From contig CALSCO010002395.1 in assembly GCA_943704415.1 (NCBI GenBank), positions 1-44,315 of the forward strand: 44,315 nucleotides of DNA, written 5' to 3'. This stretch comes from Parvularia atlantis. Its lineage: Eukaryota; Opisthokonta; Rotosphaerida. The position numbers were made by a program, and so were the translations under genes. The notes under the pieces were generated by a model. The model saw nothing but the letters and a program-made list of their open reading frames with translations, had not been told where the DNA came from and ran no database searches. This document shows, piece by piece, positions 9,057-40,976 of this stretch. Numbering within the stretch: position 1 is the first letter of the stretch; each line of letters begins with the position of its first letter.

Positions 9057-12000
9057 CTACCGGAACTGCGTGAAGGCGCCCGGCGCGGCCCCCGTCGCCC
9101 CGCCGCCGCCAAACGCGCTCGCGGCGCCACCAAACGCCGTCGGAGGGCTGCGGTGCGCACGATCAGCAAGCACAGCCGAGATCAGCAGCGCCAGGCGAAC
9201 GCACCGCTGCTGTGCGAGCGCCGCAAATCCGCCCGCTGGGGCGCCCGGAGGCGCGCCGAACGCGGGTGCAGGCGCGGACGACACTGGGCGGCCAAACGCG
9301 CCAAAGGGAGACGGCGCATTGCCCGCCGCGCCCAGCGAGGATGCCTGGCCAAACGCCGGTGCCGGTGCCGCGCGGGCGGCCGCGCCAAAGCCGAGCGCCG
9401 ACGGCTGACCGAAGGCCGGCGTGGGCAAGCCAAAGGCCGATGAGCCGGTGCCGCCGGCGAAGGCCGATGGCTGGCCAAAGGCGGATGCGGTCGGCTTGCT
9501 GGCGAACGGCGAGGCCTGGCCGAGTGCTGAGGGCTGGCCGAACGTCGACGAGCCAAAGGCAGACGGCGACGCCACGGTCCCGAACGTCGACGTTGGCGCG
9601 GGCGTGACCGGCTTGCCAAAGGCGCCGAACGGCGAGGCTGCAGTGTTGCCGAGCTGAGCGGGCTGGCCAAACGCCGGTGCTTGCGCGGCTTGCCCGAAGG
9701 GTGTCGCGGCCTGGCCGAAGCCTTGCGCGGGTGACGATGTCGCGGCGAGGGCTTGCCCGAACGGGCTTGTTGGACGCGCAGCTTGGCCGAACGGTGATGC
9801 TGCGGGCTGGGCCTGGCCAAAGGGTGCGGGCGCGGTCTGGGCCTGGCTAAATGGCGATGCTTGACCGAATGGCGACGCGGCCGGCTGAGCTGCTGACGGT
9901 TGTACTTGGCCAAACGCGGCTGCATGGCCAAAAGGTGAGGCGGCCGCAGCCGGCTGACCACCGAGCGACAGCTGGCCAAACGCGGGAGCGCTGTCGGCCT
10001 TGGCGACGGGCGTGCCGAACGCAGACGTGGCAGGCTTGGCATTGGCAGCAGCGGGCGTGCCGAACGCCGTTGTCGCAGGCTTCACGTCGGCAGCAGCAGG
10101 AGTGCTGAAGGCTGACGCGGCAGGCTTCACGTCGGCAGCAGCAGGAGCGCCGAATGCAGACGCAACAGGCTTCACGTCAGAAGGAGCGCCAAAGGGCGAT
10201 GCGGCAGGCTTGCTTGCCGCGGGCTGGTCGCCGAGCGAGAGCTGGCCGAACGCGGGGGTGCTGTCGGCCTTGGCAGCGGGCGTGGCGAACGCTGTTGTCG
10301 TAGGCTTGGTGTCAGCCGAAGCGGGTGTGCCGAAGAGCGACGTCACGGGCTTACTTGCCGCGGGCTGACCACCGAGAGACAGCTGACCGAAAGCGGGAGT
10401 GCTGTCCGGCTTGGCAGCGGGTGTGCCGAACGCAGACGCGGCAGATTTGTCGGCGTCAGAAGGAGCGCCAAAGGGCGATGCGGCAGGCTTGCTTGCCGCG
10501 GGCTGGTCGCCGAGCGAGAGCTGGCCGAACGCGGGGGTGCTGTCGGGCTTGGCAGCGGGCGTGGCGAACGCCGTTGTCGTAGGCTTGGTGTCAGCCGAAG
10601 CGGGTGTGCCGAAGAGCGACGTCACGGGCTTACTTGCCGCGGGCTGACCACCGAGAGACAGCTGACCGAAAGCGGGAGTGCTGTCCGGCTTGGCAGCGGG
10701 TGTGCCGAACGCAGACGCGGCAGATTTGTCGGCGTCAGAAGGAGCGCCAAAGGGCGATGCGGCAGGCTTGCTTGCCGCGGGCTGGTCGCCGAGCGAGAGC
10801 TGGCCGAACGCGGGGGTGCTGTCGGCCTTGGCGACGGGCGTGCCGAACGCAGACGTGGCAGGCTTGGCATTGGCAGCAGCGGGTGTGCCGAACGTCATTG
10901 TCGCAGGCTTCACGTCGGCAGCAGCAGGAGTGCTGAAGGCTGATGCAGCAGGCTTCACGTCGGCAGCAGCAGGAGCGCCGAATGCAGACGCAACAGGCTT
11001 CACGTCAGAAGGAGCGCCAAAGGGCGATGCGGCAGGCTTGCTTGCCGNNNNNNTCACGTCGGCAGCAGCAGGAGCGCCGAATGCAGACGCAACAGGCTTC
11101 ACGTCAGAAGGAGCGCCAAAGGGCGATGCGGCAGGCTTGCTTGCAGCGGGCTGGCCGCCGAGCGAGTGCTTGCCAAAGGCCGGTGCGCTGGCCGTCTTGG
11201 CAGCGGGCGTGGCGAGCGCCGTTGTGGTTGCAGGCTTCGTGTCGGCAGCAGGGGCGCCAAACGTAAACTGGCCAAATGCGGGTGCGCTGCTGGGGGCGAC
11301 TGCGGCGGGCTCGGGCATGCTGGCCAGTGCCGCGTCGGACGACGCCACTGACGCGCCGAACGAGAACGCTGTCGGCGCAGGCTGCACGGGCTGGGCCGGC
11401 TGGGCGGCGGCAGGAACGGCCGGTGAGGGCACCGCCGCCGCAAACAAGAAGCTGGTGGGCGCGGCTGCAGTGGTCGGGGCGGGCGCTAGCGTCGAGGTCG
11501 TGCTCGCGCTCAACGTCTTGCTCGGAGTCGTGGCGGCGGCCTTCGCTGGCGATGCGGCCGACTGCGCCTTGACAAGTGCGACCGCCGTGGCGCGGCGCTG
11601 GAGGGCCTGATGAAGCATGGGCCGCGTGAGCCAAGCTCCGTAGTGTACAGACCGCCCGCACCTGACGCAGTGCCTCTTCCGCGCCGACAGCGTCCGAGAC
11701 CGCGGGCGCCGGGCGCGGCAGCTTGCTCGCGCGCTGCAGGAGACTGCCGAGCGTGACCTTGGTCCCGACGCGGCTCACCTGCGTGTGTCGCGCTCAGGCC
11801 ACACGCGGCAGATGTGCGTGATCGCACCGACTGCTCGAGCGCATTGAGGCGCGGCTGGAGGCCCAGCATCGTCCTGCGCTGCGTCATGATGATGTCGCGC
11901 AAAGCAGAGACAGATGCGTCGCGGCCGAGCATCGCCGCGGCTGCATCGCGCTTGGTGTTCGCCTTGCTCTCGAGATACTCGAGCTTCTGCACCACACGCT

Positions 12001-15000
12001 GCGCACAGTCGTGTCAGCTCACGCTCGCACACCAGCTGCGTGCAATCACCGCACCGTCTTGCCGGCCTGCAGCGCGTCCCACAGCCGCTGCGACTCGGGG
12101 TCCAGGGGCGCAATAAGCGCGTGCGAGCTGGCCGTCTCGTCCGAGAGCGATGCGAGCCCGCGCTCGGCTTGGTCGCGCTGCAGCTCGGCTGTGCCGCGCG
12201 TCAGTGCTAGTCGTTGCGCAACGCCCAGCGAGCGCACGCACCCCGCGTGAGCAGCTTGAGCAGCTCGTCTTTCGCGGCGACCACCTGCGCCAGAGCCGTG
12301 CGCGTACCGTTGAGCTGCTCCTGCAAGTCTGCGATGCTCGCGACCGGAGACGCGGCGCTGCCGCTCGTTGGCGTCGGCGCAGGGGCTATCTGCGGCTGCG
12401 GCGCTGGCGGTTGCTGCGTCGGAGCGGCGGTCTTGCTTGTCGCTGCGGGCTGCGGCACCGACTTGGTGGTCGCAGCAGGCTGCGCAGGCGTTGCGACTGG
12501 CTTGTCGGTCGCGTCAGGCTGCTGCTCCGGCTTGTCGGTCACGGTAGGCTTGCCGATCGTTGCGGGCTGAGCCGTCGCTGCGGGTGGCTTGTCGGCGGCC
12601 GCCAGTGCGCCAAAGCTGAACGCCGGCGCGATCGTGGCCGCCGCAGCAGGTGTCCCAAAGCTGAACGCGGGCTGTGCCGTCTCTACGGCTTGAGCAGGCG
12701 TGGCCGCTGCGGCGGGCTGTGTCGGCGATGCAGGCTTGTCGGCAGCCGTTGATCCCGATACGCCAAAGCTGAACGCGGGCTGCACTGCGGTGGCGGGCTC
12801 GTCGGCAGCGGCGAGCTTGTCGACCGGGGCAGCAGGTGCGCCAATGCTGAACGCGGGTTGTGACAACGGCGCAGCGGGCTTCGTGCCTGGCTTCGCAGCC
12901 GCGCTGTCCGCAGCCATGCTGAAGCTGAACGGCGGTGCGGCTGTCGGCTGTGGCGTGGCCGGCGCAGGCCCAGACGCAGCGGCCGCGGTTGACACGCCGA
13001 AGCTGAACGGTTGCAGTGCGCCCGACTTGCTCGCGGGCTTGTCGGCGGGCTTGTCGGCGGGCTTGTCGGCGGGCTTGCTGGCTGCCGGCTGCGATGTGGC
13101 GGGAGCAGGCGTGGCAGCAAAGCTGAACAGCTGCGGTATCGACTGCTTGCTCGTGGCCGGCTCGTTGGGCTTGATCACAACGGGCTCGGTGGGCTCAGAT
13201 GCAGGCTGGGATGCAAACGTGAAGCCACCCGCTGGGGTCGCAAATGCAAAGCCCGGCACGGGCGCCGGTGACGGAGTCTTAATGGGCGTGGTCGCGGCCG
13301 GCGTGGTCGGCGATGAGGCTGGCTGCGCAGCGTTGGCTTGCTCGAGCGCCTTGGAGAACGAGAACATCGGCGCACTAGGCGCGCCCGCCGTGCTGGTTGC
13401 CGCCGCGCCAAAGCTGACTTGGCTGAACGGCGACTTGCCCTGCGTCGCAGCGTGCGCGCCAAAGCTGACCTGGCCGAACGGCGACTTGCCTTGCGACGAG
13501 GCGGATGGCGCAAACGGCGAGGCAGTTGTGGCGGCCGCGCCCCAGACGCCCTTGGCAGCGGCGGCCGGCGCAGCGCGCGGCACAGTGGCGTCGCTACTCT
13601 CCTCCTCGTCGTCCAGCACGTCGTCCTCGAGCTCGGCTTCGTCGTCGTTGTCGTCCTCGTCGCCCTGGCCCTCGTCCTCGTTGTCGCTCTCGCTACCGCG
13701 CGTGTCGTCGTCGCCGTCGTCGCCTTCCGTCACGGGCACGTCGGGCACCTCGTCATCCTCCTCACCATCGACCTCGACACCGCCGGCGCACGGCACCACC
13801 TGCTCGTCGCGCACGGCGTCGTCCGTAGTGCCCTCCAGCGTGAACCGGCATAGCTCGCCCTCGGACGAAAGCAGCAGCACGACAGCGTCGTCTGCGCAAC
13901 GCGCCGTGAGCAACGCAGCGGAGGAATCGTGTTGCACGCACGAGCTTTCGCGCCGCCCGGCGCGCCGCTGCGCACAAAGCCCGCCGCGCCCACGATGAAC
14001 GACTGCTCGTACGTCTCGGCGTTGGTCGGCGTCGTCACGAGGTCCATCTCCGTGAACAGCTCGTGCGGTCCGTTGTCGCCCACGCGCCTGATCACCACAG
14101 CCTCGTCCGTGATCGAGCACGCCAGCAGCACAAACGTCTCCATCCTGGGGCAAAGCGGCGTCAGTACTGCAGCCGTTCGTGTGGCACGCGCACGCACGGG
14201 AACGCAAAGGTCATCGCCGTGACGTCAAACTGCTCGGCCTTGGGCCGCACGACCGACATAAAGACGTCTGGGATGTGCTCAACGCTACGGGCGTCGCCGG
14301 CGGCCTGCGCAGCGTTGTCAGCCACAGCAGGCCACATGCAGCCACGCGCACGCACGAGCACGCCCGGCGCCAGCACGTGCAGCGTGTACCGGTCCTCCGC
14401 GCGCGTGAAGGCAAAGGTGCGGCCGGCGTCGCACGCCACGGCCTCGACTGCGGTAGTGATCGTGTGAGGATATGCTGGCACGTGTGCAAGAGGGGCGCAC
14501 CGGGCTCCTCGCCGCTCACGACCTTGACGCGGTGCCGCACCTGGCGCTTGCGGTCAAGCTCGATGACCCAGCCCGAGCACGTGCCGAGCACGAAGCCATC
14601 GGCCGCCGCGCAGACTGCACACGGAAGACGACGTCAGGCCGGCTATATCGCGCACGTCGCACGCCGCACACCGCACCGGCGAGGACCGTGTAGTCGACGT
14701 TGACGGTGACGGCCCTAAGTGCAGGCGGGGTTGCACGCAGGCCGATGTCGATCGCGCGCAAGGCGCCGTCGCTTGAGCGAAAAAGGACGGACGTGCCGAC
14801 GGCGGCGAGGTGCGTCACAAGCGCGCCAGGGAACACGGTCGTCTTAGCAACGGGCTCGCTCGCGCTCAGCTGCGACGGCGGGCACGTGACGCCGTCAGCA
14901 ACCCGCCACGGCCGAGTTAAGCAGCGGCGAGGGCGACGACCTTGCCGCGGGACGCGTCAACAGCGAAGACGAGCAGCGTGTTGCCGCTGGCCACGAGCAG

Positions 15001-15365
15001 CAGCGCATCGTTCGCGGCGAACTGTAGCGCGGCGACGGGCAGCGCCGTCTTGACCTGTGCCGCCGCCCCTCTACCTCAGACGCCAGCGGCCCTGACGCGC
15101 GCAAACGGGGGCACCTTCACGAGCGCCTTGTCGACGTCCGCGGCGTAATCGCTCAGCACGCCGACGCCGAACCCTGCCGCCGCCCCGCGTGAGCCACGAA
15201 CGACGCCGCTCACGCCACACGACACACACCGCGCTCGAGCGCCACTGCCACGAGCCCCGCCGCTGCCGCCGTCGCCGCGCGCGCCACAAGCCGCCCGCGC
15301 GCGTCGCTCGCGAAGGGCGCGGTCACGTGCACGGCCGGCGCCACGGCTGAGAGGCCCGGCGGCAT
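9057..15365 (-). CDS. FG nucleoporin, NUP214/Nup159 type
   Basis: Fourteen exons close in phase to about 1860 codons, counting six N. Order from the N terminus: a beta-propeller-like domain of about 350 residues (strands such as AALQFAANDALLLVASGN, GFVLGTCSGWVIEL, METFVLLACSI, DDAVVLLLSSEGELCRF); a strongly acidic D/E tract (around 13580-13760); a first FG region with FSFG, AFSFG and SFG motifs; a coiled-coil stretch from LQEQLNGTRTALAQVV through MTQRRTMLGLQPRLNALEQ to LLQRAS; then a long AFG/SPFG/AFGQ-rich region to the stop. NUP214/Nup159 sits on the cytoplasmic face of the nuclear pore and tethers the DEAD-box mRNA export factor DDX19/Dbp5 through its propeller. The assignment rests on domain order, since FG regions are not alignable. 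The start at 15365 leaves only 29 bp to the divergent gene. Confidence 0.85.
9960..11160. repeat. In-frame tandem repeat array in the second FG region
   Basis: A 279-bp unit (93 codons) is present in two nearly identical full copies and a partial third: the same landmark, AAAGGGCGATGCGGCAGG, starts at 10191, 10470 and 10749. A second segment of about 220 bp at about 9990-10210 recurs at about 10820-11047. Part of it recurs again after the run of N. The copies are close enough to imply recent duplication or ongoing homogenisation, and they keep the reading frame. Confidence 0.9.
11048..11053. other. Assembly gap (six N) within the nucleoporin repeat array
   Basis: The N run is flanked on both sides by the same segment of roughly 90 bp, so the assembler probably could not span the repeat. 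The true copy number and protein length are therefore unknown. The frame is kept if the gap really is 6 nt. Confidence 0.95.
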
Positions 15366-15394: not shown

Positions 15395-16621
15395 ATGGGC
15401 CGGCCCGTGACCGCGCTCGTTGTGGTCGCGCTCGCCCTGCTGTCGGCGGGCGGCGCACGCGCGCAGTGCACCGGCGTGTACTCGACGTGCAGCACGTGCG
15501 CCAGCACGGCCAACTGCCGCTGGTGCGCTGCTCGGGGGCGCGCGGCCCGTTGTTGACGCAGTCATCTTGCCGTGTTACATAGGTGCTCGGACTCGTCCCT
15601 CGCCACGAGCGGCAACTGCTACAACTACCCGTCGACGTCGTGCTCGAGCGTGGGCTACACGTACACCTTTGACCTGGTGCGTGCGCGCCGTGTGCGACGG
15701 AGGGGGAAGGAGACTGAAAAAAAAAAAACGACGCGCACAGCCATCGCAGTGCTCGGGTAGCCCGCAGAGCAGCTGCTCGTCGTACTCGTCGTGCTCGTCG
15801 TGCGCAGCGACGAGCAGCTGCGTCTGGTGCGCGCGGTCTGCGTCGGGGTTCCACCGGCGGCGTCTCACCGGCCGCGCAGGTGCTCGTCCTTCTCGTCGTA
15901 CCCGGGCTCGTCCGGCAGCTGCATCAGTACCGGCAGCGCGTGCTCGTCGAGCGGCTACTCGTACACGTACATCTACGTGCGTGCTTGATGGCTCTCTGCG
16001 CGCTGCATGCCGTGCCGTGCTGATTGTGCCTTTCGCGCGGGCGCAGTCGAGCTCGTGCAGCAGCACCAGCGGCGGCTCATACAACTACAGTCCGTACTAC
16101 TACACTGGCCTCGTGGGCACGATCCTCTACGTCGTCATCATCATCCCCACGCTCATCTTCGTGCGTCGCGGCCACGCAGTGGCGGTGCACCGTCGTCTAA
16201 CGCGCGTGGCCGCCGCAGGTCATCATCGTCGCGACCGTGATCACGATCATGGTCCGCCGCCGCCGCATGATGGCCACGGGCACCGTCATCGTCTCGTCGC
16301 CCCCGGCCCCAACGGCGCGTGCGCGTGTTGCGCTTGCTGGGGAGGGCGGATGCTGATCAGCTCGCGGCACAGCAGACCGTCGTCAGCACCAACTCTGTCG
16401 CAATGAATGGCCCCGGCCCCGGCTACCCGCCGCCGCAGGGCACCTACTACCCGCCGCCGCAGGGCACCTACTACCCGCCGCAGCAGGGCTACTACCCGCC
16501 GCCGCAGCAGCAGCAACAGGACCAGTACGCGTACCCGCCGCCGCAGCAGCAACAGGACCAGTACGCGTACCCGCCGCAGGGCCCGCCGAACAACGCCTTT
16601 CCTGGCCCGCCGCCGATGTGA
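15395..16621 (+). CDS. Secreted/type I membrane protein with PSI-like Cys modules and a YPPPQ tail
   Basis: Seven exons give about 292 residues. A clear signal peptide (MGRPVTALVVVALALLSAGG, cleavage near ARA-Q) is followed by two similar modules. Each has a C-x2-C-x5-C-x-W-C core (CSTCASTANCRWC and CSSCAATSSCVWC) and a Ser/Tyr-rich stretch with further Cys, resembling the PSI (plexin-semaphorin-integrin) fold. In both modules an intron falls inside the WC pair at the same phase, which supports duplication. One membrane helix follows (LVGTILYVVIIIPTLIFVII and onward) and then a basic stop-transfer RRRR. The cytoplasmic tail is rich in Pro, Tyr and Gln, with repeated YYPPPQ/YPPPQ. Such tails can bind WW domains, but partners are unknown. 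The last intron (about 16327-16360, 34 nt) is uncertain. I do not recognise a named family. Confidence 0.75.
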
Positions 16622-16762
16622 GCGCGTGTGCACGCGCGGAGCGATGCAGTGCAGGCCTCTCTTTGTGTGTTGTCCCTTCTCCTGTGCCGCGTGTTACCGT
16701 GTGCCTCCACACTCCACTTGACCATTTCTTGTTGTGTTCGCACAAGGGTATCGGCCTCACTG

Positions 16763-19290
16763 CTACGCCATCGTGTTGCCCGCAGGCTGCGTGGCCGTCG
16801 CGCCGCCGAGCAGCTTGATCTCGCCGCGTTTCTCGAGCTATGCACCCGTGGCCGGTTCGTGCGTGAGTGTCAGCCATCGGCGCCGATCAGCGCACCTCGT
16901 GGATATCCTGGATGGCCGTGCACATGCCGCAGAGGCCCACGCCGCACGTCGACGCGTCCTCGCTCTCGCTAATGCCGAACTTGGCCTGGACGTTGCGGCG
17001 GAGGCGGTAGAGCGAGATGCCCGAGCACAGGCACGCGACCAGGTTGAAGCCCTGCTTGTCCATCTGGCCGACGACGTGGCCCTGGGCACATTCGCACGGT
17101 CAGCACACGGTGGATGCTCACGGTCCAACTGGCGCACGCGCGCGCACCATGACGAGGCACGGGCAGCAGCACACCGCGACCGTGGTCGGGATGTCCTTGA
17201 AGCACTCGAACGTGCCAATGTCGTAGCCCTGCGTCTCCCAAAAGCTGGCCTGCACGGACGTGTTGAGCGTCATGGTCGTCGCCGACACGCTCGGCGCCGA
17301 AGTGCTGGGCGAGTCTTTGGCGGGCGTGGTCGGCGTCATGGTGGCGCCCGCCACGGCGTCCTTGGCGGGCGGGGCGGGGTTCGGCGCGGCGTCATCCTTG
17401 GCGGGCGGGGCGGCAGCAGGCGCAGCAGCGGCGGGCGCAGCGGCAACAGGCGCAGCGGCGGCGGGCGTAGCGGCGGCGGGCGTAGCGGCAGCAGGCGCAG
17501 CGGCAGCGGATGCGACACCGGCGAGCGCGGCCAGATCCGCAAGGCGCTCCTGCACGATGCGCCACGGCGCCTGGTCCTTCGCCGCCTGCCCAGCGTAGTC
17601 CGGGTCAGCAGCTAAGTGCAGCGCGTCACGGCCGCGCGCCTTGATGCGGCCGAGCAGGGACGACAGCACGACCGGGTCGTGCTCCTTGAAGAGAACGCCG
17701 AGGTTGAAGACGTACGTGTCGAGCTCGGCGGGGTTGAGGCCGGCAAGGATAAAGACATCCACACCGAGCGGGTCTGTCGTGGCGTAGACCTGGCGCATCG
17801 TCTTGATCTGCTCCGCGGGCTCAGCTTTGGACGAGAGCGGGAACAGGTGCGTCTCCTCGCTCATGAGGTGGGCCTCCATGTGGTCCAGCAGCTGGGCGAT
17901 CGAGGCGCACGTGAGCGGGTGAGAAACTAAGGAGGCATTTGCGCACCTCGTCGAGGCTTTTCTTGGCCTCCGCCACGGCGTCGGCGGCGGGCTGTGGCGC
18001 GGCCGCGAGCGCCGTGAGCTTGTCGAGGATAGGGCCGTACAGTGCCTCCTCGTGCTCGTGCTCTGCACCGGGCGCTCAGAGCGCCGTTGCACATGCAGCC
18101 TGTGAACCGCGCACCCTCGTGCTGCGTCTTGGTCGCGCCGGCTTGCATCGCCTCGAGCAGCGGGAAGAGGATCTTCTCCTCGTACACGGCGTGGTTGTCG
18201 CGCACGAGCGTGACGAGCTTCGCCAAGGTGTCGGCGGCCTGCTGCAGTGCGTCCTGCGTACCCTTGTCCAGCAGGGCTGCAAAGGGGGGTGAGCGCACGA
18301 GCGCGCGCGTCGATCGCGAGGGAGGAGCCGCACCGCGCAGCGCGCGCGCGTAGAAGCGCACGGCCTGGTGCTGCAGCTGGTTGTTGGCAAACACGGGCGC
18401 GCGGGGGATGGCCATGATGGCGCGCTGCGACGACAGCGACGGTCACCGTGCGCGCGCAGATGGGCATCGGCGATCGCACCTTGAGCAGCGCGTCGACCGG
18501 CGTGGCGACCTTGGTGTGCGCGGGTAGGGCAAGCAGGCGGTCCTTTCGCGACGCGTGCGTGGTCAGCAAGACGGCGCCGGAGGGCCGATGCGCGCACGCA
18601 CACCTTGTACGCCGTCAGCGCCGTCAGCTTGCCGTCGGGCTCAACCCAGCGCATGTACTTGAGCACAGGCAGGCGGTAGAGCAGCGGCAGGACGTACACA
18701 TCGATCATCGACGGCTGCGCGCCGAAGAAGAACGGGCCGGGCGCAGCGGCCAGGTGCGCGTCCAGCTTGGCGAAGGCCACGGCGAGCTTCGGGCGGAACT
18801 CGCGCTGGACGGGCATGCCGGGCGCCTGGAGGACCTTGGTGAAGGCCGCCGTGAGGTCGTCGCGCACAAAGGCCAGCCACGTCGCGTAGTCGTCCGCGGG
18901 CACGGCGTCGGGCGCGGGCACGGCCGGCGGCTCGGGCACGGTCGTGTCAATGTAGGCGAGGGCGTCGTCGCTGGACGCGAGCACGACGTCGCCGTGCAGC
19001 ACGACGGGCACGGTGCCGGCCGGGTTGTACTGGCGCAGCCGTGCGCTGTCAGACGCGACGTGGCGACGAGCGGGATCCGCGCGCACCTGCTTGATCTGCG
19101 CGAGATCCGCCTCGTTGCTTAGGTTCACCTCGCGCTGCGGTACTACACGTGTCAGCGGAAGATGGGCGGCGCGCGGCCGGCGCACAAACTCGCTCGCGAC
19201 GCCCTTGAGCTCGAGCAGCACGCGCACGCGGTGCGTGTACAGACAGAACCTGTGGCTGAGCACGACGAAGGGCGCGGTCGCGGCGGCCAT
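16763..19290 (-). CDS. GST - hemerythrin - PLAC8 fusion protein
   Basis: Ten exons close in phase to 671 residues with no stop. Residues 1 to about 214 form a glutathione-S-transferase: thioredoxin-fold start FCLYTHRVRVLLELKG with a Cys in the active-site position, AGTVPVVLHGD and SSDDALAYID (cis-Pro and Ser-Asp signature), then a helical domain (FFFGAQPSMIDVYVLPLLYR). Residues about 220-350 form a hemerythrin bundle with all iron ligands in order: His in QLQHQAVRF, HxxxE in NHAVYEEKILFPLL, His in EEHEHEEALYG, HxxxE in HLMSEETHLFPL. A helical stretch and an Ala/Pro-rich linker follow. Residues about 550-650 form a PLAC8 domain (FWETQGYDIGTFECF, AVCCCPCLVMG, CGVGLCGMCTAIQDIHE). One exon (17148-17891) covers the last hemerythrin helix through the start of PLAC8, so that fusion is certain. 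The GST joins by two ordinary introns (18543-18603 and 18425-18479). The likely role is redox or metal sensing, by inference. Confidence 0.88.
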
Positions 19291-19350
19291 CGCGCGGTGA
19301 CTCAAACGGTGAACTGTGTACGCGTACGTCACAGTTGACTTTGGAAGGAG
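19291..19350. promoter_or_regulatory. 60-bp divergent promoter region (GST-hemerythrin-PLAC8 and CIAO1)
   Basis: Two divergent ATGs are 60 bp apart. The interval is noticeably more A/T-rich than its flanks (for example CTCAAACGGTGAACTGTG and CAGTTGACTTTGGAAGGAG), as expected for a compact bidirectional core promoter. No specific factor site is recognised. Confidence 0.5.
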
Positions 19351-20821
19351 ATGCCGCTTGAACTGATCGCGACGCTGCACGGTGCGCCGGGGGGGGGAAG
19401 CGATGCGGGTCGTCGCCGGCCGCTGAGCCACGCGCGCGGGCGCGCCAGGCCACGCGGACCGCGTCTGGTCCGTCGCGTGGAATCACAACGGCACGCTGCT
19501 GGCCAGCTGTAGCGGCGACAAGACCGTGCGGCTGTGGCGGCAGGCACGTGCGATGCGATGCGTCGCCGGGGACAGTGCGAGCGCGCGCCGGCTGACTGCC
19601 ACGCCCGGCGACCGTCAGGAGGGCGGCGCGTGGATCGAGGCCGGGCGCCTGGACGACGCGCACCAGCGCACCATCCGCGCCGTCGCGTTCTCGCCCGACT
19701 CGCGGCACCTGGCCACGGCCAGCTTCGACGCGACCACGGGCGTGTGGGAGTACAGCGCGACGACGGGCGGTGCGCGCCCCCCGCGACGGCGATCGCGCGC
19801 CAGGCCGCGGCACCGATCGTCACTCGCGGCAGAGTATGAGCTGCTGGCCAACCTCGAGGGCCACGAGAACGAGGTCAAAAGCGTGGCCTGGTCGGCGTCG
19901 GGCGCGCTCCTGGCGACGTGTGGGCGCGACAAGAGCGTGTGGGTGTGGGAGGGTGCGTTGCAGCACACCGCGCGATGCGCGGGCGGCGCGACTGACAGAG
20001 GTACAGTCGAGGCCGATAACGAGTTTGAGTGCGCCGCCGTGCTGCAAGACCACACGCAGGACGTGAAGATGGTCCGGTGGCACCCGTACGACGACGTGCG
20101 TGGTTCCGGGCGCGCAACGGCACGCTGAGCCGCAGGCGCAGGTGCTTGTGTCGTGCAGCTACGACGATACGATCCGTTTCTGGGCGGAGGACGGCCACGA
20201 CTGGGTCGGCGCGGGCACGCTCACCGGCCACACGTCCACCGTCTGGGCGGTCGACTTTGACGCGGCCGGCACGCGCTTGGGTGCGCGCCCGCTGCTTGCG
20301 TCTTGCTGCGTGCGAGCTCACGTCGCGCGCTGCGGCCGCAGCATCGGTCGGCGACGACCGCGCGCTCAGGATATGGCGCCGCTTCCTGCCGGGCAACGCC
20401 GAGGGCGTGGACGTGGGCGGGGCGCGCTCGCGCTGGGTGTGCACGGCGACGCTCGACGACCAGCACACGCGCACGATCTACACCGTGTCGTGGTCCGGCG
20501 CAGATGTGATCGCGACGGGCGCGGGCGACGACGCGATCCGCCTGTTTGGCCCCACGGTGCGCGCGCGCGCGGCCCTGTCCGGCTGCACCGGCTCAGTGCA
20601 CGCACGCAACCACGTCAGGGCGCAGGGCCGGACACGTACGCGCAGCTGCACGTCGTCAGCAAGGGTGTGTGCCTCACCCGAGCTGCCGCCCGCTGACACG
20701 CGCGCGCGCGGCAGCACACGACTCGGACATCAACTGTGTGCGCTGGAGCCCCGGCGACCCGACGCTGCTGGCCTCGGCGAGCGACGACCGCTCGATCAAG
20801 CTGTGGCGGTGGCGGGCGTGA
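19351..20821 (+). CDS. CIAO1: Cytosolic iron-sulfur assembly component, CIAO1/Cia1
   Basis: Nine exons close in phase to 330 residues (human CIAO1 has 339). The protein is a seven-bladed WD40 propeller. It is the substrate-docking part of the targeting complex that inserts Fe-S clusters into cytosolic and nuclear proteins. Blades are clear: GHADRVWSVAWNHNG with CSGDKTVRLW, RTIRAVAFSPDSRHLATASF, GHENEVKSVAWSASGALLAT, DHTQDVKMVRWHPYDD, GHTSTVWAVDFDAAGT, RTIYTVSWSGADVIATG and AHDSDINCVRWSPGD with SASDDRSIKLW. The FDATTGVW segment is characteristic of Cia1 and not of general WD proteins. The intron at 19544-19618 fits only as GC-AG (CAG then GCACGT). The S9, DDAH and PP2A neighbours are unrelated. 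Known clients of the pathway include some DNA helicases. Confidence 0.95.
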
Positions 20822-39100: not shown

Positions 39101-40976
39101 CTCTTCAAGGCGCTCTTCTTCGAGAACAAGTCGATGGCGTCGATCGTACGCAAGAACATGGGCTCGCACCGGCAGCGGTGCGCGCTCTTCTGCCGCGCAC
39201 GCACGCGCGGCTCACGCAGCGCTACGCGCCTCAAGCAACCGCAAGACGGCCATCACGTACGCGACCGCCCTCGGCTTCCTCATCTTCCTCGCCGTCGCGG
39301 TCGACATTCAAATCAGCAACCTGTACTACGAGTGCGTCGTTGTTGTTTATTTTGCCCCCAGAGGCGCCGTGCGCCCGTGCCCGCGCCGTGACCCACGCGT
39401 CGTGCGCTCGCCAGGACGATCCAGAGCAACGGTGCGGTCCTGCAGATCGAGTCATACGCGACTGCGGATGGTTTCGCGCTCGGCATCACCCCGAAGAGGC
39501 GCGAGATGCCTTCTCAGCGCGGTGCGGCGCTCATGTGGCGCGCGGCTGCAGGGCGCTGGAGGATTGGGCGGCGGCCCAGCGTGACGTCGTCGACTACGCC
39601 TGGATATCGTACGAAATGCAGAGCACGTGGAACGTGCGCCGGGGCCTGCAGGTGTCAAACGTGGGCAGGCACGTAGCGGCACCTTGTGCGCGGCACGGGG
39701 CGGTTGCTGATTGCGTCGCGCGCACGGTCGTTAACCGGTAATGCAGGTACCTCACGAGCAACACGTACCTCTACGCGGGCTCGCCCAACGTGTGGGAGGC
39801 ATTCCTGCCCGGGTACACGAACGTGGTCAGGTCGCAGCCGCGGTCGCCGTACACGCTTGGTCAGCAGGTGCGACCGTGCATTGCTCCGGGAGGCGCTGCG
39901 TGACGCTGCGTGCTCGGGCAGCTGTACGCGCAGCAGGGCGACCACGGGATCATCACGGGCGAGTACTTTGGCAGCCAGTACGGCCTGGCCGACCCCTCGC
40001 GCGAGATCTTCATTATCACGACGATCAACACTCAGCCCGTCAACACGGTCACACGCACGCGCGCGCGCGGCACGGCCACGCTGGACGGCACGCCGGTCTT
40101 CACCATGACGTCGTTCCCCAACAGGCACGCGCGCGCGCGCCACTGGGCCGCAGGCTGAGCCGGCGCGCCCGCGCAGCTTTGAGGACATCGTCGTCAACCT
40201 ACCGTTTTTCGTAGAGCTGTCTGGCGGGCAGTTCAAGTCGGTTGACGACATCCCAATGCGCCGGTTCATCATCAGGCTGGCGCCAGGTGCGGGCTGGCTG
40301 TGTGCGGCCGGCTGCCGCCGTGCTGACGCAGCGAGCAGGCCTGAACGACTCGCGCGTCGACGCCGTGATCGCGTCACTGCCGCCGCTGTCCATCGGGTAT
40401 CTGACGGACGTGCGCGGGCAGTTTGGGCTGCTTGTGACGCAGCAGGGCACGATCCAGTGGATCTTCCAGGTGCGTGGCAGCTGCAGCGGGCGCCGCGGCC
40501 GTGCTGCCTGACGCAGGCCGCAGATCGTCACCGTCTTCACGCTCGTCATCGCCTTCTTCTCGCTCAGCACGTCCATGTTTACCAACATCATTGAGCAGAC
40601 GAAGGAGGTCGGTATCCTGCGCGCGCTCGGCCTGTCGCGCTTCCCGATCTTCCGCATCTACATCTACGAGGCGTTCTTCCTCGTGATCTCGTCGGCGATC
40701 CTCGGCGTGCGTCCGCTCACCGCCTGTGCGCACCGGCGCGGGCTGACGCCGTCCGCTTGCCGTGCACACTGGCAGGGCCTGATCGGGCTGATCATCGGCT
40801 GGTCGATCAACGCGCAGTTTGCGCTGCTGACGCAGACGCCCGTGCCGTTTGTCTTCCCCTGGAGCCTGGCCATCACCGTGCTCATCGTCGCGGTGCTCTC
40901 TGCCATCTTCTCGACGGTGCTGCCGGTGTGGCGCCTGGTGATGATGCCGGTCGTGGGCATCTTCCGGCTCAAGTGA
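36116..40976 (+). CDS. Large FtsX/MacB-type permease with two FtsX modules
   Basis: Many exons (about 20) give roughly 1200 residues. A disordered Ser/Gly/Pro-rich cytoplasmic N terminus leads to the first helix (KCQFVLGCGSICLVVFVV, LSVLSFAPILFLGLA). A large extracytoplasmic domain resembling MacB_PCD follows (KEAAIGIGREWKLPPVPRG). The first FtsX core is LLLSGISILLIYSLLLVSVE, RTFELGIFRMIGLNRAGLV and IPVIAAIFPIRAALTKNLHDA. Two or more middle helices and a second extracytoplasmic domain follow. The second FtsX core is VTVFTLVIAFFSLSTSMFT, EQTKEVGILRALGLSRFPIF and AIFSTVLPVWRLVMMPV. FtsX proteins normally pair with an ATPase in lipoprotein, lipid or peptide handling. No ATPase is fused or adjacent. 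The intron at 39499-39551 is GC-AG. I could not settle one junction near 38038-38075. Confidence 0.8.

Follow-up and report, generated by a model that had tools for sequence, protein, structure and literature searches.

Gene structure at the locus

The window analyzed here is a stretch of 44,315 nucleotides of Parvularia atlantis DNA with a GC content of 69%, and it carries, on its minus strand, a gene for a predicted protein of unusual domain composition, next to a divergently oriented gene for a CIAO1-like protein (Table 1). When spliced and translated, the frame that starts with the ATG at 19290 and closes with a TAG ending at 16763 joins ten exons in phase, contains no internal stop and yields exactly 671 residues, as had been proposed in a preliminary description of this DNA. 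The nine introns are short (51–66 bp each) and uniform in type: each begins with GTG (GTGCG in eight, GTGTG in one) and each ends with AG, preceded by C in seven, with AAG closing intron 3 and TAG closing intron 9. The introns read in the neighboring CIAO1 gene resemble them in size and type (46–75 bp, seven of eight starting with GTG and one apparently of the GC-AG kind); the GC-AG boundary appears to belong to the second CIAO1 intron, at 19544-19618. In all ten exons of the minus-strand gene the GC content by codon position follows the same course, typical of coding sequence, reaching 0.85–0.97 at third positions vs 0.25–0.55 at second positions.

The translated product contains the three domains originally claimed, each exceeding its Pfam cut-offs: a glutathione S-transferase (GST) part (GST_N_2, E 5.1e-12, residues 15-80; GST_C_2, E 1.7e-9, residues 130-177), a hemerythrin part (E 3.5e-14, residues 232-356), and, by a narrow pass, a PLAC8 part (PF04749, E 2.4e-8, residues 562-645; 35.2 bits against a gathering cut-off of 34.4). 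Scanned on their own, residues 361-460 matched zero Pfam families. The protein has 11 cysteines, of which C16 is the only one in residues 1-549, the other ten being in the PLAC8 part.

Table 1. Features of the minus-strand fusion gene and its divergent neighbor, in positions of the window
Feature	Position	Strand	Basis and remarks
Whole coding region	16763..19290	-	10 exons, 671 aa; splicing, translation, codon-position GC
PLAC8 module and C-terminus, residues 550-671, exons 8-10	16763..17255	-	Pfam, 35.2 bits; CCCPC 578-582, CGVGLCGMC 631-639
Ala/Pro-rich linker, residues 461-549	17256..17522	-	60% Ala+Pro composition; codon-position GC
Post-hemerythrin tail, residues 360-460	17523..17825	-	Without Pfam family; initial part, up to residue 389, alignable with the contig C88 paralogue
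Hemerythrin/HHE bundle, residues 215-359 (Pfam 232-356), exons 5-8	17826..18424	-	Pfam; YtfE and paralogue alignments
Intron 4, GST-hemerythrin junction, 55 bp	18425..18479	-	GTGCG...CAG
GST module of the Cys type (residues 1-214, exons 1-4), its one Cys being C16 of CLYT	18480..19290	-	Pfam; 4qq7 alignment
Gap between start codons, possible shared promoter	19291..19350	.	60 bp; ATG 19290 (-), ATG 19351 (+)
CIAO1, cytosolic iron-sulfur assembly WD40 protein, divergent neighbor	19351..20821	+	WD40 match; spliced reading, last two introns unsettled (frame lost there), end by sequence

Continuity of the reading frame across the domain junctions

Whether the three domains belong to one protein depends on two junctions, and both look real from the reading of the DNA. 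At the GST-hemerythrin junction, a stop scan with intron 3 retained left the GST frame open to 18078, and with intron 4 retained the frame from exon 4 stayed open to 17120, so that a GST encoded separately would lack a stop codon ahead of the hemerythrin part. A GST transcript ending there, followed by a restart at an internal methionine near 18415, which the preliminary description had raised as a way for the fusion to fail, is thus unsupported in the DNA, no stop in the GST frame being found upstream. The small exon 4 and its frame are supported in turn by the alignment of the GST module to the solved structure 4qq7, which reaches the end of that exon (residue 214). At the hemerythrin-PLAC8 junction, exon 8 spans the boundary with 248 codons free of stops, with a chance expectation of about 0.007 when calculated from base composition alone, ignoring codon structure. 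PLAC8 had been described as fused through one uninterrupted exon, and this is correct for the junction itself; the PLAC8 coding sequence, in contrast, is divided by intron 8 (17147-17082), its second half being supplied by exons 9 and 10.

Two or three adjacent genes, i.e., a GST gene, a hemerythrin gene starting at Met 218 and possibly a PLAC8 gene, could mimic a fusion where stops are rare. An internal methionine does lie directly before the bundle (MAIPRAP, residues 218-224), intergenic gaps in this DNA go down to 60 bp, and long open frames are not rare at such GC content, on the antisense strand as well: one of 297 codons stays open at 16722-17615, overlapping the exon 8 region, which calls for caution about chance in the frame of the fusion gene itself. 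The absence of a GST-frame stop with either intron retained, and the long open exon over the second junction, nevertheless make separate genes very unlikely. An artificial join in an assembly of 616 contigs is more improbable still, to the point that we rejected it: the only run of N in the window is six bases long and distant from the gene (11048-11053), and splicing in phase over ten exons would hardly survive a misjoin. We therefore regard the fusion as strongly indicated, although short of proof, and the reading of one gene encoding GST, hemerythrin and PLAC8 as a single protein as very probable.

The GST module

Among solved structures, the GST module matches SspA (stringent starvation protein A) proteins best (E 1e-14), and in the alignment to the SspA structure 4qq7, which covers residues 8-215, C16 stands opposite the cysteine of CPFS. 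Omega GSTs match as well (8qll, E 1.5e-10). The best NCBIfam model for this part is likewise SspA, albeit at 55.7 bits against a cut-off of 314. SspA is a transcription regulator that is not known to act as a GST, and omega GSTs are free-standing enzymes. The putative active-site motif, CLYT at residues 16-19, has the Cys, Tyr and Thr of CP[F/Y]T and Leu in the place of Pro; it is accompanied by a cis-Pro pair, VP, at 58-59, and by a Ser pair, SS, which was placed by eye at 69-70. The classes of cysteine GSTs treated in PMC4138524 carry ES, DS or GS at the Ser-pair position, and with SS there and a CLYT motif short of the usual Pro, the glutathione-site signatures of the module are weak.

These features could be accommodated by a GST part that is an SspA-like scaffold or regulator devoid of glutathione chemistry, in which case the diiron bundle would do the work along with the membrane tail, and both the ranking of SspA among structures and models and the altered CLYT and Ser-pair motifs point in that direction. 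Retention of C16 and of the VP pair, together with the match to omega GSTs, points away from it, and we consider such a scaffold rather unlikely. In favor of a catalytic GST, solved proteins of the GST fold could be aligned along the entire module, their cysteine falling at C16. Cysteine GSTs generally strip glutathione from conjugates (deglutathionylation; PMC11449216, PMC4138524). The suggestion that the protein is a metal/redox or oxygen sensor or detoxifier can be followed as far as a redox or metal role, which is reasonable since C16 occupies the catalytic-cysteine position of these enzymes; its oxygen-sensing part is not favored, for reasons that lie in the hemerythrin bundle.

The hemerythrin bundle and its putative iron site

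Four histidines and two glutamates (H233, H273, E277, H302, H345, E349) are the candidate iron ligands of the presumed four-helix bundle. Among solved structures the closest in sequence is that of the repair protein YtfE of E. coli, to which five of the six could be aligned, in a weak match (E 0.0023-0.0027): H273 with H129, E277 with E133, H302 with H160, H345 with H204 and E349 with E208. In YtfE, H84, H129, E133, H160, H204 and E208 are named as ligands (PMC9268430). The candidate for the sixth, H233, would correspond to H84; it lies outside the YtfE alignment and was placed by the Pfam span and by alignment with a hemerythrin paralogue from contig C88 of the same genome. E301 aligns with YtfE E159, which forms a hydrogen bond with H129, while the position of E125, a gate residue highly conserved in RIC proteins, is a gap. 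The NCBIfam model FeS_repair_RIC scored 28.2 bits, far below its cut-off of 204.7, and a true RIC was rejected on this ground. The weak match, the gap at E125, the position of H233 beyond the alignment and the RIC score all count against the function proposed below.

In oxygen-binding hemerythrins, helix 3 carries HxxxH and helix 4 carries HxxxxD; this pattern is absent here, the corresponding stretches reading H302-E-E-A-L and H345-LMS-E-E. An oxygen carrier was rejected accordingly. A full set of His/Glu iron ligands had been reported for this part, which holds for the four-His/two-Glu set of the HHE/RIC (YtfE) kind (five by alignment, H233 by position) and fails for the set of the oxygen carriers. 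Oxygen sensing is not favored either, given the absent pattern and the standing of YtfE as nearest, if weakly matching, solved relative.

A bundle that changes shape with iron or oxygen, and in this way regulates the GST or the tail at the membrane, can be modeled on FBXL5 and BRUTUS, in which a hemerythrin bundle confers iron- or oxygen-dependent control. The four-His/two-Glu site (H233 again by position) would suit such a sensor, and so would the extra stretch that follows the bundle, which is reminiscent of the stretch found after the bundle in plant BRUTUS/HRZ proteins. Set against this are the missing oxygen-carrier pattern, the absence of any FBXL5 chain among the six solved-structure matches obtained up to E 10, and a Pfam scan of the fusion protein that returned no degradation or output domain. 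We judge a sensor of this kind unlikely, somewhat more so than the SspA-like scaffold.

The PLAC8 tail

The cysteines ascribed to the PLAC8 part are indeed in place, as CCCPC and as CGVGLCGMC, which conforms to CGxxxCGMC, and the most hydrophobic 19-residue stretch of the whole protein, residues 571-589, also falls within this module; together these suggest that the tail mediates membrane attachment. The model of the plant PCR/CNR Cys-rich proteins, TIGR01571, gave 25.8 bits, below its cut-off of 35.05. No solved structure matched the PLAC8 part up to E 10, and no relative was found among nine pattern matches in viral contigs. Members of the PLAC8/cornifelin family are usually small stand-alone proteins, and the function of PLAC8 in general is unsettled. 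Palmitoylation is predicted for human members of the PLAC8 family (PMC5655499).

Neighboring genes

A 42-residue WD40 stretch of the divergent neighbor placed the CIAO1 chains 3fm0, 9uky and 6tbl among the best of 509 matches, behind a generic WD40 protein. The location of a cytosolic iron-sulfur assembly gene 60 bp away would fit a role of the fusion protein in Fe-S protection, a weak argument given that the genome is very compact, for which reason the adjacency may mean nothing.

Several other features were noted in the window. On the plus strand at 15400-16620, in convergent orientation with the fusion gene, there is by eye a predicted protein rich in Cys and Ser, which combines a hydrophobic stretch with a tail of Pro/Tyr/Gln-rich repeats. 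The minus strand holds a long, low-complexity, coding-like region at 11000-15100, resembling by eye an FG-type nucleoporin, and the run of N lies within it. Plus-strand matches to the arginine-deiminase family (859-1461, E 5e-8; dimethylargininase-like by eye) and to an FtsX-like permease domain (40512-40970, E 2.6e-15) were also recorded, the latter in a eukaryotic window and belonging to a family best known from bacteria.

Relatives in databases and elsewhere in the genome

Query words in the protein database searches came from residues 1-500 or a named region, the PLAC8 part being outside, and targets of about 369–1174 residues were covered. The whole fusion protein gave no match up to E 0.001 among the 7,994 candidates with the most words in common, and residues 1-440 gave none up to E 1 among the 7,997 so selected; both are weak negatives, as the candidates were probably swamped by Ala-rich words. 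With residues 335-435, no match up to E 10 was obtained among all 708 candidates. In prokaryote genomes, none of 46 pattern matches proved related to the hemerythrin part, and one of 25 was related to the GST part, over 31 residues encoded in the MAG of an alphaproteobacterium.

The genome itself, a 16.25-Mb assembly, was surveyed by a six-frame search with exons searched singly. GST_N_2 was found at no fewer than seven places on seven contigs, the window's own included, and hemerythrin at two or more places elsewhere, on contigs C88 and C282; PLAC8 was found at one place at least, the only one seen being the fusion gene. The counts are lower bounds, the hemerythrin search having missed the window's own exon-split domain. 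Among the six-frame matches, no other contig carried two of the three domains. When the genome was searched at the DNA level with the fusion gene, the gene found only itself and four short matches, all in the Ala/Pro linker (query 642-748). The C88 paralogue is 29% identical to the fusion protein over an alignment of 163 columns that includes the start of the post-hemerythrin tail. In this paralogue (L006 1501-1887) the hemerythrin lies in one open frame after a long Ala/Pro/Val-rich stretch, so that low-complexity sequence stands beside a hemerythrin at least twice in the genome.

Photosystem reaction-centre and chlorophyll a/b-binding genes had no match in the assembly, the control matching in Synechococcus only, and within the limits of that assembly the host thus seems to be non-photosynthetic. 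The assembly also includes contig C530 (L011, L012), with a bacterial-type SSU rRNA and, named by eye, cox1, nad3, nad6, rps3, rps13 and ccmC, which we read as a gene-rich mitochondrial genome.

Proposed function

We propose that the product of this gene, which resembles the GSTH class of plants, is a membrane-tethered, glutathione-linked diiron enzyme directed against reactive or metal stress; as an explanation of the whole this is plausible while falling a little short of probable. From an observed frame, its domains and their ligand-type residues we infer that the protein is tethered, uses glutathione and contains iron, and that its parts cooperate. The mechanism could be as follows. The PLAC8 cysteines, probably S-acylated, and the hydrophobic segment would hold the protein at a membrane, and the flexible Ala/Pro linker would let the GST-hemerythrin body act nearby. 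C16 of the GST may then use glutathione to reduce oxidized, nitrosylated or metal-thiolate adducts, and the diiron centre, with its YtfE/RIC ligand set, may handle NO or peroxide, or hold labile iron. Acting together, GST, diiron centre and PLAC8 would form a thiol-linked unit for iron/redox detoxification or repair at the membrane, a mechanism we put forward more tentatively than the overall reading. Four GSTHs of moss are reported to be nucleo-cytoplasmic and not membrane-bound (Liu et al. 2013, cited in PMC4138524), which speaks against a membrane-bound enzyme, although no PLAC8 is reported for them in the account of the class given there.

A combination of GST, hemerythrin and PLAC8 was thought not to have been described. 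For all three domains this agrees with the open-access literature, in which we did not find it, and neither glutathione nor PLAC8 occurs in the main texts of a survey of O2-binding hemerythrins (PMC4919030) and of an older hemerythrin survey (PMC2556348). It does not apply to GST plus hemerythrin, which is the layout of the published GSTH class. The class is listed for Bryophyta and lycophyta in Table 2 of a 2014 review, where it is called not yet characterized (PMC4138524), and has been found in P. patens, M. polymorpha and A. agrestis (PMC9937507). The older survey is cited for the distribution, with a main text that does not contain the word glutathione; the cited statement probably concerns hemerythrins in general, and if the statement is right, the present host is less surprising.

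The published origin of the class is touched by a GSTH-like layout found outside plants: its occurrence in an apparently non-photosynthetic microbial eukaryote would mean that the layout is older or shared, or else that the same fusion was arrived at independently. The added PLAC8 hints at a site of action and offers a way into a class described in the review as uncharacterized. As a long shot, GSTH may be no land-plant invention at all but an older or laterally shared protein of eukaryotes, and may in this lineage have become a diiron/glutathione unit anchored in the membrane, which protects cytosolic Fe-S assembly or feeds it and is co-expressed with CIAO1 from a shared, divergent 60-bp promoter.

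Comparison with known systems

SspA and omega GSTs share with the fusion protein the GST fold, as judged by sequence, and SspA also shares the position of C16 by alignment; unlike the fusion protein, neither is known to carry hemerythrin or PLAC8. RIC/YtfE proteins, in which the diiron ligands are four histidines and two bridging glutamates, have the same set in a hemerythrin-like domain, with the E159 place taken by E301, whereas the fusion protein lacks ScdA_N in the Pfam scan, shows the gap at E125 and has GST and PLAC8 attached. With the PLAC8/cornifelin family it has in common the two cysteine motifs, the hydrophobic Cys-rich segment and the Pfam match, and it departs from that family in scoring below the plant PCR/CNR model and in carrying PLAC8 fused instead of alone.

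The closest resemblance is to GSTH, which is described as a cysteine GST with CP[F/Y]T, a hemerythrin of about 150–200 residues and some 100 unannotated residues, about 510 in total, with [F/Y]P and GS as signature pairs (PMC4138524). In the fusion protein a Cys-GST with GST_N_2 and GST_C_2 likewise stands N-terminal, a hemerythrin module of about 145 residues comes next, and about 100 domain-free residues follow; its CLYT comes close to the class motif, with Leu for Pro. It differs in having VP and SS at the signature pairs, an Ala/Pro linker and PLAC8, features not reported for GSTHs in that review, a length of 671 residues, and a host that is apparently non-photosynthetic. Since neither signature pair is present, and by comparison with the published description of the class, we call the protein GSTH-like and stop short of assigning it to GSTH. 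What is known, then, is the fusion of GST with hemerythrin; what is new is the PLAC8 tail on its Ala/Pro linker, and an apparently non-plant host.
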